A stretch of DNA of 43,717 bases, taken from Saprospiraceae bacterium (GTDB lineage Bacteria; Bacteroidota; Bacteroidia; Chitinophagales; Saprospiraceae). Shown piece by piece: positions 15,737-21,289 of the stretch. Location of the stretch: assembly GCA_029263015.1 (NCBI GenBank), contig JAJCYI010000017.1, positions 1 to 43,717 of the forward strand. The letters are read 5' to 3'. The stretch's first letter is position 1. Each line of letters starts with the position of its first letter. Position numbers and translations under genes: made by a program. A model generated the notes under the pieces. The model was not told where the DNA came from. It did not search any database and saw nothing but the letters and a program-made list of their open reading frames with translations.

Positions 15737-15766
15737 ACAGTTATTCATCCAATCTACACAGTTACA
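15737..15766 (+). promoter_or_regulatory. LytTR-type binding site upstream of the sensor kinase
   Basis: Direct repeats ACAGTTATT and ACAGTTACA separated by exactly 12 bp (21-bp periodicity, two helical turns), the classic spacing and core (compare AgrA-type ACAGTTAAG) for LytTR regulators. A TA at 15799, 33 bp after the site, starts a weak -7-like TACTTTAC; transcription would then begin just before the GTG at 15826. The next gene but one encodes a LytTR regulator, so autoregulation is likely. The site also sits in the upstream region of the divergent PorE-like gene. Confidence 0.7.
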
Positions 15767-15825
15767 GGTTTATCGTTTAAAACATGTTCAGAAAACTGTA
15801 CTTTACCCCCAAATAATAAAAACCT

Positions 15826-16317
15826 GTGCGCTACCTTTTCATCGCCATAATCTTGCTGGCTTCCAAAGCATCAATTGCCCAAGAACCAGCTTATATCCAC
15901 TATGGTGTAGAAGATGGCCTCCCCAGCACATTGGTCTATCACATGTTGCAGGACAAGAAAGGGTTTCTTTGGTTTGCCACGGACAAGGGTTTGGCTCGGT
16001 TTGACGGTACGCGTTTTAAGGTTTATACTATGAAAGATGGGCTACCGGATCCGGAGGTCCTCTATATGTTTGAGGATAGCCAGGAGCGTTTATGGTTGTC
16101 TTGCTTTCAGAAGAAACCTTGTTATTTTCAAAATGGTGAGTTTCATACGGCGGAGAATGATACTTTGTTGAGTAAGTCAGAAATGAAAACTGGGATCTAT
16201 ACTTTTTATGAAGACAAAAACAGCTTTATCTGGATTGCAAACCGAACAGATAAATTTTGCATCGTGAAAAAAAAAGTCATTAGTTGCTATTATGGTATTG
16301 TCGGGGGGGGGCTATAA
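15826..16317 (+). CDS. propeller sensor histidine kinase, N-terminal part (frameshifted)
   Basis: First 163 codons of a sensor that continues at 16284-18848 in another frame. GTG start at 15826 gives a signal peptide (MRYLFIAIILLASKASIAQ) and then periplasmic two-component-regulator propeller blades: YGVEDGLPSTLVYHMLQDKKGFLWFATDKGLARFDG is cut here into the motifs DGLPS, GFLWFATDKGL and RFDG, repeated as DGLPDPEV and RLWLSCF. The frame ends in a TAA just after a run of nine G at 16303-16311. One extra G would join it to the downstream frame without a stop, giving a protein of about 1007 residues. So this is either a sequencing/assembly error, a phase-off variant, or a recent mutation. Confidence 0.8.
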   Translation: MRYLFIAIILLASKASIAQEPAYIHYGVEDGLPSTLVYHMLQDKKGFLWFATDKGLARFDGTRFKVYTMKDGLPDPEVLYMFEDSQERLWLSCFQKKPCYFQNGEFHTAENDTLLSKSEMKTGIYTFYEDKNSFIWIANRTDKFCIVKKKVISCYYGIVGGGL

Positions 16318-18848
16318 AAAAAATGGGAAAGGTAAACGATAGAATACTTGCAACAACTTGGAACAATATATATGATATTACAGACCCAGATAGCCCCTTT
16401 CATCTCCTACATATAAAACGTCCATATAACTACATTAGCCCTTCCATTTCCTTTAGCAACAATCAAATAGATTATTGTTTTTCTTCAAGCGGAATTACAA
16501 TCAAATATGAAAATCACGAACCAGAGATAATTAAAAGAACTTACAGTGTGCCTTTCTCTCAAAATTTTAATTCCATTATTGAAAGTAGCAATATCTGGAT
16601 ATGTCCCCATTCAACATCAGGAGGAGCATTTAAAATCAACAATGAAAACGAAACGAATGGAAGACCAAAGTTATACCTTAATGAAAAACAAGTATCAATT
16701 GTATTTAAGGATTCAATGAATGCTTTGTGGTTTACCACCTTGAATGAGGGGGTTTTTGCCTTGCCCAAAAAGACACCAATATTATATAATAGAACAATGA
16801 GTCCCGTTCTTAGGTCAAATAATATAACAGCATTAACCTTGCTTCCCGACAGCCGAATAATATTTGGCGACACATTTGGAAACATTTATTCCTTCATCAA
16901 AAATAATAAGAATATTGCCCTATTGAAAAAGGATGTAAACCAAAACAGGGTACGCCAAATCATAGCGATGCAAGATTCTTCATGGTTGGCCGTTTTAAAC
17001 AAAAATCTAATTGCTGAATTTAAGGAAGTTAAAATTAAATACAAAAATACAAAAAATGGCCTGCCTTGGCTTTCTTCATTCGGGGCATTAAAATATGCAC
17101 TCAACGATGATATTTATACATGGATATGTACACATCACAGCTTGGTTTACTATGATGAAATAAACCAACCAGCAACATTAGTGATAAGTAACAATCGAGT
17201 TACGTCTATTGGTAAAGATAACGAAGGTGATTTGTGGGTGGGCAGCAATGACGGCCTGTTGTCTTCACGGGACAGTTTTAAAATAAAATGGGGGAACAGA
17301 TTCAAGCCATTGCAGGGTCAAATCCCAGATATTAAAAAAGCAGACCCTGGTCAGTTGTGGGTTGTTACACCTGAATTTGGTCTCCTTCGGGTTCAGGTCC
17401 AAAATGGAGCAGTAATAAACCTAGAAATAATAAACGACCTGATCCCAACCCCAATAGAAAACATCAAAACTCTTTTCAGAGAAGATAATGGAAAATTATG
17501 GATGGCAACCAATAATGGTGTTTACAGTATAGATCAAGATTTAAATACGCACCATTACGACATGAGTGACGGCCTCCCAACCAATGACGTAAATGCTGTC
17601 GCTGTAGATCAGGACACACTTTGGGCAGCCACCGTAGCTGGTCTTTCAAAAATTCAACTCAACCAACCAATTGAAAGCAATAACTTCCCGACATATATAT
17701 CAGGATTAACATACAACTTGGATGAGAATGATTATGAATTTGATTTAATTTACCGTCAAAAAAAATCTATTACTTTGCCTTCTGGCACTTCGATGTTGGA
17801 AGTGCAATTTTCTGGCCTACACTTTAACAGCCAAGGCAACATTACTTATGAATACATTGAGGAGGAAAAATCGCTGTCTTTTCAATGGTTGACATGGAGT
17901 AACCTGGCCAGTAATTTTCATTCAGATAAAGACACCTCCATAATAAATGGCCACTCCCGAAATTTTGGGATAGACCCTCCAACTGGCACGTTTGAAACCA
18001 GGGTAACTGCCATCTCCAAAAATGGTGTACGTAGCCGACATCCTGACACATTCACTTTTACTATACTGCCTTACTGGTATGAGACAATTTGGTTTAGCAT
18101 CCTAGTTACAGGCGTGATCCTATTTGTAATATGGCAATTCTATTTGAAGTTCACTGCTGTGAAACGACTGCAAAGAGCGGCTACGGATTTACAGTTACAG
18201 GCAATAAAGGCACAGATCAACCCACATTATATTGGGAACAGTATCAACGCAATACAGCAATTTTTTTACCCTCCAAACCCCAATAAGGCAAGTCAGTACA
18301 TCTCAACTTTCACTTATATACTGCGCCAAACGATGCACCTCGCAGAAGTGCCTTTTATTCCGATAAAAGAAGAATTGGGCTTTATAAGCAGTTATCTGGA
18401 AATGGTGCAGCTCCGTTTTGAAAATCGCTTTCAATATAAAATAACAGAAATAGGAGGCTTGTCTCCAGATATGTCTTTCCCGGCCATGATCCTCCAGCCC
18501 ATTTTGGAAAACGCGACCATTCACGGGCTTGCCATCCAGGGGGCTTCTATACTGAGCGTGGATTTTCACATGTCAGGAAAATTCTTGATTTGTTCTATTA
18601 CTGATAACGGAATTGGCATCAATATTTCAAAAGAGAGGAAAAAAGCAAAAAGCAAAAAGCGGGTATCAAAAGGCATTGAATTGCTCAAGAAAAAAATATT
18701 CATTTTGAATAAAATGTATGGCATAAAATTAAAGCTTGATTTTCAAGATTTATCTGAAAATCAAGCTGGTAGTCATGGGACAAAAGTCACAGTTTCTTTT
18801 CTCCATAAAAAAATTACACAGGTAACTTTCAATGAAAAAAAAGATTAA
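16284..18848 (+). CDS. propeller sensor histidine kinase, main part (LytS/YpdA type)
   Basis: Continuation of the preceding frame; the genuine residues begin just after the G9 tract (AIKKMGKVN), while the first nine codons are out-of-frame sequence. If expressed alone it could start at the ATG at 16323 but would lack the signal peptide. Propeller blades run to ~480 (DGLPTNDVNAVAVDQD near 430), followed by a Y_Y_Y-like beta domain (~490-595), a membrane segment (~600-622) and a PF06580-type kinase core: phospho-acceptor H in AQINPHYIGNSINAIQ (~644-658; usual NPHFLFN is changed to NPHYIGN), N box ENATIHGL (~742) and DNGIGI (~773). It overlaps the LytTR regulator gene by 17 bp, so the pair is one operon and a cognate system. 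Confidence 0.85.
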   Translation: MLLWYCRGGAIKKMGKVNDRILATTWNNIYDITDPDSPFHLLHIKRPYNYISPSISFSNNQIDYCFSSSGITIKYENHEPEIIKRTYSVPFSQNFNSIIESSNIWICPHSTSGGAFKINNENETNGRPKLYLNEKQVSIVFKDSMNALWFTTLNEGVFALPKKTPILYNRTMSPVLRSNNITALTLLPDSRIIFGDTFGNIYSFIKNNKNIALLKKDVNQNRVRQIIAMQDSSWLAVLNKNLIAEFKEVKIKYKNTKNGLPWLSSFGALKYALNDDIYTWICTHHSLVYYDEINQPATLVISNNRVTSIGKDNEGDLWVGSNDGLLSSRDSFKIKWGNRFKPLQGQIPDIKKADPGQLWVVTPEFGLLRVQVQNGAVINLEIINDLIPTPIENIKTLFREDNGKLWMATNNGVYSIDQDLNTHHYDMSDGLPTNDVNAVAVDQDTLWAATVAGLSKIQLNQPIESNNFPTYISGLTYNLDENDYEFDLIYRQKKSITLPSGTSMLEVQFSGLHFNSQGNITYEYIEEEKSLSFQWLTWSNLASNFHSDKDTSIINGHSRNFGIDPPTGTFETRVTAISKNGVRSRHPDTFTFTILPYWYETIWFSILVTGVILFVIWQFYLKFTAVKRLQRAATDLQLQAIKAQINPHYIGNSINAIQQFFYPPNPNKASQYISTFTYILRQTMHLAEVPFIPIKEELGFISSYLEMVQLRFENRFQYKITEIGGLSPDMSFPAMILQPILENATIHGLAIQGASILSVDFHMSGKFLICSITDNGIGINISKERKKAKSKKRVSKGIELLKKKIFILNKMYGIKLKLDFQDLSENQAGSHGTKVTVSFLHKKITQVTFNEKKD
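16303..16311 (+). repeat. G9 homopolymer at the frameshift
   Basis: Nine G in a row, with nine A at 16267-16275 and eight A directly after. Such tracts are prone to slipped-strand change and to sequencing error. G10 restores the sensor reading frame; G9, as here, ends it after 163 codons. Confidence 0.9.
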
Positions 18849-19593
18849 TGTGCTGTTGGTTGATGATGAAATAGGTGCTATCAGGACACTGAAAGGAATG
18901 CTTCAGAAATACTTTCCTCAAATCAATGTCCTCGGTACTGCGCAGACTGTAAATGACGGCGTTCAAAAAGCATTGAAACACATTCCAGACCTGGTATTTC
19001 TTGACATAGAAATGCCACCCTTTGGTAGCGGTTTTGATTTTTTGGATAGGTGTAAAGGCATTAAATTTGGAATCATCTTCACAACGGCCTTCCCGGAATA
19101 CGCAGTTAAAGCAATCAATGATATTCAACCTTGGGCATATCTTGTCAAGCCATTCAGTGTCGATAGTTTAAGGAAAGCAATTGAAAAAGCAGAAGAAAAA
19201 ATTAAAGCTATAGAAGAAAAAAATCCAAATCGCTTAAAACAAACCAGTCTCATTGTTCCAGATTTCAGGAAAGGGAAGGTTGTTGTTCCTGCAGCGGATA
19301 TCATATATTGCCAAGCTGACGGTTCGAGCGCCGACATTTATTATCTAAAAAACAAAGAAGTTGTTTCAATTGGCATTTCCAAAATTTTGAAAGTCCTTGA
19401 ATCTCAACTTCCAAAAGATTCTTTTTTTCGTAGCCATCACAGCTTTTTGGTAAACCTCACATTTGTTGACAGATTAAAACAAACTGGAAGGAATGGGCGG
19501 GTATATTTAAAACATAATATAGATGTACCGCTTTCAGTTTTAAAACGGGATATTTTCTCAAAAAAATTGTCTGCTTTTCACCACCCCGAATAA
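18832..19593 (+). CDS. LytTR family response regulator
   Basis: 253 residues. The receiver is complete: acidic pair D11-D12, phospho-acceptor D58 (VFLDIEM), T84 (FTTAF) and K106 (VKPF). A linker of basic/acidic helix (~110-140) leads to a LytTR DNA-binding domain (~145-250; DIIYCQADGSSADIYY, FFRSHHSFLVNLTFVDR). By family, it binds paired 9-bp direct repeats about 12 bp apart; such pairs occur upstream of its sensor gene (15737-15766) and downstream of itself (19698-19727). The start overlaps the end of the sensor gene, implying translational coupling, so the frameshift in the sensor need not stop expression of the regulator. Confidence 0.95.
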   Translation: MKKKINVLLVDDEIGAIRTLKGMLQKYFPQINVLGTAQTVNDGVQKALKHIPDLVFLDIEMPPFGSGFDFLDRCKGIKFGIIFTTAFPEYAVKAINDIQPWAYLVKPFSVDSLRKAIEKAEEKIKAIEEKNPNRLKQTSLIVPDFRKGKVVVPAADIIYCQADGSSADIYYLKNKEVVSIGISKILKVLESQLPKDSFFRSHHSFLVNLTFVDRLKQTGRNGRVYLKHNIDVPLSVLKRDIFSKKLSAFHHPE

Positions 19594-19697
19594 AGGTTTG
19601 GGGATATTTTGCTTGACTACTTTAGGGTTTGCACAAAACCTATTATGGCGCAGAATAAAACCTATCGTGTTCAGTGTGGCGCTGAGATAAAATTTGC

Positions 19698-19727
19698 ACA
19701 GTTACTAATCCAAACGTCACGGTTACT
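19698..19727 (+). promoter_or_regulatory. second LytTR-type binding site
   Basis: ACAGTTACT and ACGGTTACT separated by exactly 12 bp, same orientation and design as 15737-15766. A perfect -7 box TAACTTTG (19760-19767) starts 33 bp after it, the same distance as the weaker box at the sensor gene. No protein gene follows on the plus strand before the terminator at 19911-19940. Confidence 0.65.
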
Positions 19728-19759
19728 AGTTTGTCCTACCTGCCAACAATTTTACTGAT

Positions 19760-19767
19760 TAACTTTG
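19760..19767 (+). promoter_or_regulatory. -7 promoter box of the candidate small RNA
   Basis: TAACTTTG matches TAnnTTTG exactly. The nearest TTTG (19730-19733) is 26 bp upstream, somewhat far for a -33 element, which would fit a promoter that depends on an activator such as the LytTR regulator. Confidence 0.5.
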
Positions 19768-19773
19768 ACTCAT

Positions 19774-19940
19774 CGAAAATCCAGGATAATTGACCTAAAG
19801 ACCATTAACAACAACCCCATTTAAACTGCAATTTATTTTATCGGCGAAAACACTCATCTTTCTTTTTTATAAGGCATTGAACACGCCTATTAATTTCAAA
19901 AAACCATACCGAAGCCTCCCCCCAGAGGCTTCCTTTTTTT
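19774..19940 (+). ncRNA. candidate LytTR-controlled small RNA
   Basis: Predicted from context only: an upstream LytTR-type site, a -7 box and, about 165 nt later, an intrinsic terminator (8-bp GC-rich stem plus T7). The stretch contains no ATG or GTG in any plus frame, so a small protein is unlikely. The tail (GAAGCCTC..GAGGCTTC, T7) is typical of small RNA 3' ends. Targets cannot be read from sequence alone; the 5' boundary is estimated from the -7 box. Confidence 0.35.
19911..19940 (+). terminator. intrinsic terminator
   Basis: GAAGCCTC (19911-19918), 6-nt loop, GAGGCTTC (19925-19932) and T7 at 19934-19940. It stands between the convergent LytTR regulator and E2 genes. Confidence 0.85.
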
Positions 19941-19963
19941 GTTCCAAGTCCTGACAATAATTT

Positions 19964-21289
19964 TTACACCTCCCTGTTTTTATCGAAATCTTCAAGGTAG
20001 TCACCGATCCGCCGTAGAAATGATCCGCCAAGAAATCCATCAACTACCCGGTGGTCGTAACTCAACGAAAGGAACATCATTTGCCTCACAGCAATCAAGT
20101 CTCCATATTCCGTTTCCACAACGGCAGGTTTTTTACGGATAGCGCCAGTAGCTAGTATGGCAACTTGTGGTTGGTTAATAATTGGTGTGCCCATTACATT
20201 TCCAAAAGTTCCGACATTGGTAAGCGTAAAAGTTCCACCTTGGATGTCGTCAGGTTTGAGTTTATTGTTCCTTGCACGGCGAGCCAGGTCATTCACGTTC
20301 TTTGCCAAGCCAACAAGGTTTAGTTGGTCAGCAGCCTTAATGACTGGGACGATCAGATTTCCTGATGGAAGGGCGGTGGCCATACCGATATTCAAGTCTT
20401 TATGGACTAATATCTTGTCATTTTCCATGGAGATATTCACCATTGGATAATCCCCGATTGCTTTAACCACTGCTTCCACAAAAATGGGTGTGAAAGTTAT
20501 TTTTTCGCCATATTTTTGCTGGAACGATTCTTTGTTTTTGTTCCGCCATTCGACGATACCCGTGACATCCACTTCCACAAAAGAAGTAACATGGGGAGAA
20601 ACCCGTTTCGACATGACCATGTGATCTGCAATCAATTTCCTCATGCGATCCATTTCCACAATTTCCACTGCACCGCTAACGCTGGTTGTCGGTTTTTGCG
20701 CCGTTATCGTTGCCGTCTGCGGTATTGAGGTGCCAGCGTGGGGCTGACCACTGGTCCTGTTCTCCAAATAGGACAATATGTCTTTTTTGGTAAGTCGACC
20801 ACCTTTACCACTACCTGGTACTTGCTCTAATTCTGCTACACCTATATTCTCTGCTTTCGCAATATTTTTCACCAATGGGGAATAAAAACGGCTTCCCGAA
20901 ATTTTCACTCCTGTGGCCGGCTCTGGAATATTGGCCCGTGCAGCTGTAGGTTGTGCCTCTGCTTTCGCAATAGCCGTTTTATGGCCGTTTGACGAAGCTA
21001 CTGGTTCTTCTTGTGGCGGCAACCCCTCATCTGGAGCAGGAGCTTCACCTTCTGTGGCAATAACAGCGATGGCTTTGCCGACTTCTACCACATCGTTTTC
21101 CTGAAAAAGGATTTTTGAAAGCACTCCAGCCACTGGGGAAGGTACTTCTGAATCTACCTTGTCAGTAGCAATTTCAAGAACGGTCTCGTCCACATCGATC
21201 GAATCGCCAACATTTTTCACCCATTTGAGGACAGTTGCTTCTGTAATACTTTCACCCATCTTGGGCATTATCAATTCTATTTGAGCCAT
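19964..21289 (-). CDS. 2-oxoacid dehydrogenase E2 (dihydrolipoyl acyltransferase)
   Basis: E2 core of a branched-chain-type 2-oxoacid dehydrogenase complex; transfers the acyl group from E1 to CoA through lipoyl-lysine. 441 residues: one lipoyl domain (1-78) with the lipoylated lysine K44 in ATDKVDSE, an Ala/Glu-rich linker, the E1/E3-binding domain at ~133-170 (SPLVKNIAKAENIG), a second linker, and the acyltransferase domain (~210-440) ending with the catalytic SYDHRVVDGF (His near 412). The likely partner is the fused E1 at 27379-29385, 6 kb away on the opposite strand, so E1 and E2 are unlinked. Substrate (branched-chain versus pyruvate) cannot be settled from sequence by eye. Confidence 0.93.
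   Translation of the reverse strand: MAQIELIMPKMGESITEATVLKWVKNVGDSIDVDETVLEIATDKVDSEVPSPVAGVLSKILFQENDVVEVGKAIAVIATEGEAPAPDEGLPPQEEPVASSNGHKTAIAKAEAQPTAARANIPEPATGVKISGSRFYSPLVKNIAKAENIGVAELEQVPGSGKGGRLTKKDILSYLENRTSGQPHAGTSIPQTATITAQKPTTSVSGAVEIVEMDRMRKLIADHMVMSKRVSPHVTSFVEVDVTGIVEWRNKNKESFQQKYGEKITFTPIFVEAVVKAIGDYPMVNISMENDKILVHKDLNIGMATALPSGNLIVPVIKAADQLNLVGLAKNVNDLARRARNNKLKPDDIQGGTFTLTNVGTFGNVMGTPIINQPQVAILATGAIRKKPAVVETEYGDLIAVRQMMFLSLSYDHRVVDGFLGGSFLRRIGDYLEDFDKNREV

Follow-up and report, generated by a model that had tools for sequence, protein, structure and literature searches.

The window analysed here is a 43,717-nucleotide stretch of DNA from a Saprospiraceae bacterium (contig JAJCYI010000017.1 of assembly GCA_029263015.1), and its region from 19698 to 19940 is very probably, judging from sequence, the gene for a LytTR-controlled non-coding RNA of about 170 nt (140-210 nt in relatives). 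The region is flanked by the gene for a LytTR response regulator (18832-19593) and by a convergent gene for a 2-oxoacid dehydrogenase E2 (19964-21289, minus strand). Its elements are as follows:

19698-19727, plus strand: LytTR-type repeat pair of the RNA promoter (pattern match and comparison with relatives)
19760-19767, plus strand: -7 box TAACTTTG (sequence match to TAnnTTTG, kept in relatives)
19772-19940, plus strand: predicted non-coding RNA of about 169 nt (start placed from the box position)
19843-19853, plus strand: conserved motif A, GGCGAAAACAC (GGCGAA in nine of nine genus RNAs)
19897-19906, plus strand: conserved motif B region, CAAAAAACCA (ACCA in nine of nine, 49-67 nt behind motif A)
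19911-19940, plus strand: terminator hairpin and T run (stem covaries between species)

Anatomy and conservation of the predicted RNA gene

The repeat pair, ACAGTTACT-12-ACGGTTACT, is a direct repeat of the 9-12-9 LytTR type, as the first-pass annotation had claimed. When it was used as a pattern against the window, with up to 3 mismatches allowed, two matches were obtained, the site itself and a second one at 15737-15766, and none in 100 shuffles. The two repeats start 21 bp apart, or about two helical turns, which is the paired-direct-repeat arrangement of a LytTR-activated promoter. A gap of 32 bp, rather than the 33 bp first annotated, separates the pair from TAACTTTG, which is indeed a perfect TAnnTTTG box; by eye, the promoter possesses no TTTG at -33. 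TAnnTTTG boxes of Flavobacterium psychrophilum occupy positions -12 to -5 (PMC9723704), and the start of the RNA is therefore predicted near 19772. Relative to this start, the centre of the repeats (19712.5) falls at about -59.5.

The terminator is composed of GAAGCCTC-6-GAGGCTTC, then a C, then T7, in agreement with the stem plus T7 described at first. In an alignment of seven sequences, 94.2% of the stem pairs are standard, and five of the eight pairs have changed on both sides with the pairing kept. These values are reached by only 4 (pairing) and 3 (double changes) of 500 shuffles, and sliding the stem by 1-3 columns gives at most 48.1% standard pairs and 0 double-changed pairs. The remaining body of the RNA is A-rich, and the consensus structure contains the terminator alone. 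The promoter of its own and the intrinsic terminator that are expected of a small RNA gene are both present at the sequence level.

A search with the LytTR protein (E <= 1e-45) gave a match in 9 of the 14 genomes of the genus (genomes, loci and contigs are labelled G, L and C below). In G011 the LytTR gene reaches the contig end, and so has no sequence beyond it. In eight genomes, that of the window included, the site lies 10-213 nt past the LytTR stop codon. The unit of G006 was discovered first by an RNA model, R1, with E 1.1e-8; this model was built from seven of the eight RNAs, that of G010 being omitted for its long insertion. The model match in G006 is preceded by the site, with its box 32 bp on, and by the last part of a LytTR gene, 44% identical over 71 residues. 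Conservation beside orthologous operons was what the first-pass annotation had staked its case on, and a complete unit (repeat pair, TAnnTTT box, RNA-sized stretch and hairpin) is kept in nine of the nine genus genomes that have sequence beyond the LytTR gene. The box lies 32 bp from the site in eight of these nine units and 33 bp in G001, and behind it a stretch of about 140-210 nt contains an exact GGCGAA, ACCA 49-67 nt later, and a hairpin. The strict terminator scan was positive in seven of the eight units found first. Four of the 14 genomes (G002, G003, G005 and G012) lack all three of the LytTR gene at the above threshold, the RNA (E <= 0.1) and the composite promoter of repeat pair and box.

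A held-out RNA model, R2, built from five RNAs with the window's copy excluded, finds the RNA of G006 (62.4 bits), that of the window at 19839-19938 (31.2 bits, E 4.5e-5 in 64 kb) and that of G008 (27.2 bits). Conservation between species, a further hallmark of a small RNA gene, is observed, though the window's own copy scores only modestly when held out. Other matches to the RNA models were set aside: 10 weak ones within the genus (E 0.0015-0.092) and 8 in the family outside the window's genome (E 4e-5 to 0.0095) have no promoter match in the loci fetched and were taken as chance or shared terminators, and the match in L109 overlaps, by eye, the end of a coding frame. No Rfam family, including any for RNAIII, FasX or VR-RNA that the collection contains, reached the gathering score in the window, to which that search was confined.

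As a separate observation, CACGCTC-like units recur three to five times in the variable 5' part of three RNAs (L058:2354-2564, L067:6861-7064 and L108, the last from G006). CACGCTC occurs 14 times in the nine RNAs, whereas 300 shuffles give 2.0 on average and at most 7, and 12 of the 14 are in G004, G006 and G007, with none in the window's own RNA. As the copies are clustered in three RNAs and the motif was picked after inspection, they are regarded as a lead only; such repeats could constitute a sponge or several pairing sites.

The two-component operon and the distribution of the promoter

The operon upstream of the predicted RNA comprises the following features:

15737-15766, plus strand: 9-12-9 repeat pair of LytTR type at the sensor kinase promoter (pattern scan)
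15799-15806, plus strand: -7-like box TACTTTAC (32 bp behind the kinase-promoter repeat pair)
15826-16317, plus strand: sensor kinase, first open frame (Reg_prop; interrupted at nine consecutive G)
16284-18848, plus strand: sensor kinase, second open frame (Reg_prop, His_kinase)
18832-19593, plus strand: LytTR response regulator (Response_reg E 1.7e-12, LytTR E 2.7e-13)

The site ahead of the sensor gene had been described as identical in design and spacing to that of the RNA. This holds for the repeat and the 32-bp gap but not for the box, as TACTTTAC, about 20 nt ahead of the GTG start of the kinase, has only four of the six fixed letters of TAnnTTTG. Candidate sites are found at both the kinase and the RNA promoters in the window's genome and in six relatives, and the kinase site is the weaker; in the six relatives it has position-weight scores of 15.5-34.8, against 49.1-62.6 at their RNA promoters. 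The kinase itself is split into two overlapping frames at the nine-G run (16303-16311), with eight A shortly after, and forms one stop-free frame of 1000-1076 codons in ten relatives. The frameshift may be genuine, as a lesion or through phase variation, or may come from a sequencing error.

Behind the LytTR stop codon, at 19628-19660, lies one end of a small element resembling a miniature inverted-repeat transposable element, and this is the only remnant of it in the window. The end has 12 matches in G010 (loci L040 and L043-L052), partly as inverted pairs of one element, single matches in G001, G012 and G013, and two in G009.

The specificity of the promoter was examined with a composite pattern of repeat, 32-bp gap and box, allowing up to 3 mismatches and using the reversed pattern as a control. 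Since the pattern and its weights were derived from known sites, independent evidence comes only from the control and from places not known beforehand, and it is the silence elsewhere that provides the test. The composite pattern matched 12 places in the 14 genus genomes, against 1 for the reversed pattern. Eight of the 12 are the RNA promoter, one each in eight genomes (that of G001, with its 33-bp gap, was missed), and the remaining four all belong to the window's own genome, where they correspond to the kinase promoter and to sites on C24, C89 and C139. In seven other genomes of the genus the RNA promoter is the sole composite match, and the RNA may therefore be the main output of the system.

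Five good sites, with 0-1 mismatch to the 9-12-9 pattern, occur in the window's own genome: the two in the window, C89:31071, C24:3108 and C139:45199. The same five are its only composite fits (0, 0, 1, 3 and 3 mismatches), and the notion that the LytTR-like repeats are a dispersed mobile repeat was rejected on this count. The C89 site precedes a gene for a Kelch/SprB-repeat protein, the C24 site a gene with a signal-like start and no Pfam match, and the C139 site another gene without a Pfam match; among the five, only the site at 19698 is not followed by a gene. Dropping the box gives a looser pattern that is not distinctive, with 32 places in this genome against 91 for the reversed control. 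The 27 places beyond the five good sites have 2 mismatches, and ATGGTTA tandem runs on C50 and C123 account for 11 of them.

Across 398 genomes of the family, the composite pattern matched 22 places in 16 genomes, against 3 for the reversed control, and four of the 10 places outside the genus adjoin LytTR systems. The unit of G092 (genus g79), found by the pattern, consists of a site, the box TACCTTTG 32 bp further on and a hairpin followed by nine T; it sits behind a LytTR gene 32% identical to that of the window, and its RNA contains neither ATG nor GTG. No kinase is present among the frames of at least 150 codons in the 7.5 kb fetched from this genome. For two places in G402, the 19 kb fetched contains no match to the LytTR protein of the window or to the end of its kinase; the sorting of the 10 places covers all but G148 and a third place in G402.

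The LytTR protein itself was detected at E <= 1e-45 in only 4 of 199 family genomes searched, the window's own included. In L069, L070 and L072, contigs of relatives, a strong site is oriented divergently to the kinase gene and leads into a non-coding stretch; the three stretches share CTCTGTATC and a CxCCxAAA-like motif, and two of them are closed by a good hairpin with a T run. The 70-bp site sequences of L069 and L072 are identical to those of G410 and G412 (genus g63), and in G413, of the same genus, the position of the site fits the divergent layout, with a hairpin behind it. In G029 (genus g17), a weaker site behind the LytTR gene has the box TATTTTTA at 32 bp and, about 245 nt further on, a 12-pair hairpin with a T run. 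Among more distant LytTR relatives, a repeat-and-box scan of 17 loci (L075-L088, L074, L098 and L099, with L089-L097 left out) gave only combinations without the LytTR core.

Two more of the 10 places, the composite promoters at L158:3325 (G262) and L159:3897 (G137), lead into genes with signal-like starts, as judged by eye, and may reflect wider LytTR regulons of secreted proteins in other genera. In genus g129 (G142 and G221; L140:2520-2877 and L141:1251-1616, both on the minus strand), each genome has two small GG-leader peptide genes behind a weak LytTR-like site that points away from the kinase, with no good box 32 bp from the best site. Of the three peptides scanned, one matches a class I lanthipeptide leader model, with an E value of 7.5e-4 that falls short of the model's cut-off.

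Coding capacity, neighbouring genes and alternative readings

It is highly improbable that the transcript serves as mRNA for a very small protein, which in the window would require a start other than ATG. An ATG or GTG does lie behind the box in seven of the nine genus RNAs, the RNA of G010 has a frame that is open throughout, and the weak divergent site in G142 and G221 precedes small peptide genes. However, there is no ATG or GTG within 19698-19941, as had been stated at the outset, and so none in the window's RNA. Furthermore, the open frames of the nine RNAs are dissimilar, the spacing between motifs A and B spans all three phases, and no reading frame is shared among them, as is characteristic of small RNA genes. 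The parts that are conserved are the A-rich motifs and the terminator.

An even slimmer chance is given to the stretch belonging to the next gene, as its leader or attenuator, instead of forming a free RNA. A gene on the same strand comes next in seven of the nine genus genomes, and also in G092; by eye it is lipoprotein-like in G007, G004, G009, G001, G013 and G006, while in G010 it is of the helix-turn-helix type, and the sequence from the terminator to the lipoprotein gene is partly alike between species. Yet the next gene is convergent in the window and, by sequence likeness, in G008, so that the RNA cannot be a leader in these two. Elsewhere the terminator intervenes, and in several genomes a TAATTTTG-type box is seen by eye ahead of the lipoprotein gene.

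The slimmest chance of all attaches to the site, box and hairpin being separate features, with the LytTR site a spare one and the hairpin simply the usual terminator that ends the kinase-regulator operon. Terminators are ordinary between convergent genes, and this one might be used by the operon mRNA as well. In nine diverged genomes with three kinds of downstream neighbour, however, site, box, motifs and terminator keep their order and rough spacing, and another genus has a similar unit across the operon, where an operon terminator would be needless.

Several results weigh against a LytTR-controlled non-coding RNA. The open frame of the G010 RNA amounts to 81 codons from a TTG, without counterpart elsewhere, and this RNA is missed by both R1 and R2, its assignment being based on site, box, motifs and terminator. 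The G008 terminator, though visible in the RNA fold, was missed by the strict scan, and R2 scores the window's RNA no better than the false match in L109 (31.0 bits). Given this false match and the missed G010 RNA, RNA similarity alone is modest, and the case therefore rests on place, promoter and terminator together. Beyond the genus, no good T run follows the hairpin of L070, and G029 has a weak site (13.9, compared with scores of 49-63 in the genus) and several ATG in its RNA. Pairing of the RNA with the start regions of the kinase mRNA or the approximate start regions of the LytTR mRNA (7 genomes, 14 tests) gave z values of -1.98 to +1.63, none of them prominent. Finally, since the kinase frame is broken at the nine-G run, the system may be off or variable in this genome. 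On balance, the non-coding RNA under the adjacent LytTR regulator that the first-pass annotation proposed is supported by comparison of sequences, with expression and LytTR dependence as its predicted consequences.

Proposed circuit and known systems

From this arrangement we infer a circuit in which the Reg_prop/His_kinase partner would phosphorylate the LytTR regulator encoded just upstream of the RNA. The phosphorylated regulator most likely binds the repeat pair and activates transcription of the RNA, as suggested by a start near 19772 and an AgrA-like position of the repeat centre. The weaker site at 15737 would probably let it control the promoter of its own kinase as well, thereby creating feedback. 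Transcription is predicted to stop at the intrinsic terminator. The body of the RNA is largely unstructured and carries the two conserved motifs, and its likeliest function is regulation of mRNAs in trans.

It is conceivable, if doubtful, that the LytTR two-component system in this branch of the Saprospiraceae is a dedicated RNA switch with a movable 'effector slot', in which RNA and peptide effectors interchange under one control module. Besides self-control, one adjacent RNA would then be the main target and, in most species, the only strong one. The slot would lie behind LytTR in one genus and divergent from the kinase in another, and in a third it would be occupied by a class I lanthipeptide-like peptide set.

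The first-pass annotation knew of no small RNA of this kind in the group, and by titles and the beginnings of abstracts, with most subscription papers outside the search, none adjacent to LytTR was found in the literature on Bacteroidota. One paper on LytTR, small RNAs and Bacteroidetes mentions LytTR and small RNAs separately in the part available. These Bacteroidota are known here from genome assemblies alone, mostly metagenome-assembled, and one RNA per genome provides a concrete handle on what the Reg_prop/LytTR systems of the phylum do.

ComE-like regulators are LytTR proteins, as is VirR of Clostridium perfringens, which acts on paired repeats before VR-RNA, a gene that is not known to lie beside virSR; the agr system uses a peptide signal. 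The VirSR two-component system and the regulatory RNA VR-RNA are named together in the literature, as far as the accessible portions go, and differ from the Saprospiraceae unit in phylum and promoter type.

Closer in phylum, GibS of Bacteroides thetaiotaomicron and Rfp18 of F. psychrophilum are, like the Saprospiraceae RNA, small RNAs from bacteria with TAnnTTTG promoters (PMC7366714, PMC9723704). Several B. thetaiotaomicron small RNAs are AT-rich and little structured (PMC7366714), whereas Rfp18 is reported to fold strongly, unlike the body of the window's RNA (PMC9723704). The term 'LytT' is absent from PMC7366714, as is 'LytTR' from PMC9723704. The available parts of the two papers name no adjacent LytTR system for GibS or Rfp18, and report no obvious Hfq or ProQ in Bacteroides (PMC7366714, PMC9723704).

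By analogy, the proposed circuit resembles fasBCAX of group A Streptococcus most closely, and agr/RNAIII in promoter geometry and feedback. In fasBCAX, the gene for the FasX small RNA is the last member of a sensor-regulator locus and also its effector, and FasA has been proposed to act exclusively at FasX (PMC12675982); similarly, the Saprospiraceae RNA promoter stands alone as a composite match in seven genomes of the genus besides the window's own. Unlike the Saprospiraceae locus, fasBCAX is Gram-positive, has two sensor proteins and employs a -35/-10 promoter; the term LytTR is not used in the paper on it (PMC12675982). AgrA, the LytTR regulator of Staphylococcus aureus, acts at paired direct repeats, the promoter-proximal ones centred at about -60, and both its operon and the adjacent effector RNA are activated (PMC4227749). 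The predicted repeat centre in the window is likewise near -59.5, and the candidate sites at its own operon and at the adjacent RNA may serve a similar double control. RNAIII, unlike the window's RNA, is divergently transcribed and encodes delta-hemolysin (PMC4227749), a layout nearer to that of L069-L072 than to that of the window. Regulator-plus-adjacent-RNA circuits are known from Gram-positive pathogens, and the occurrence of this layout in Bacteroidota, with the same repeat-to-start geometry, suggests either that the circuit is older and more widespread than assumed or that it has arisen more than once.
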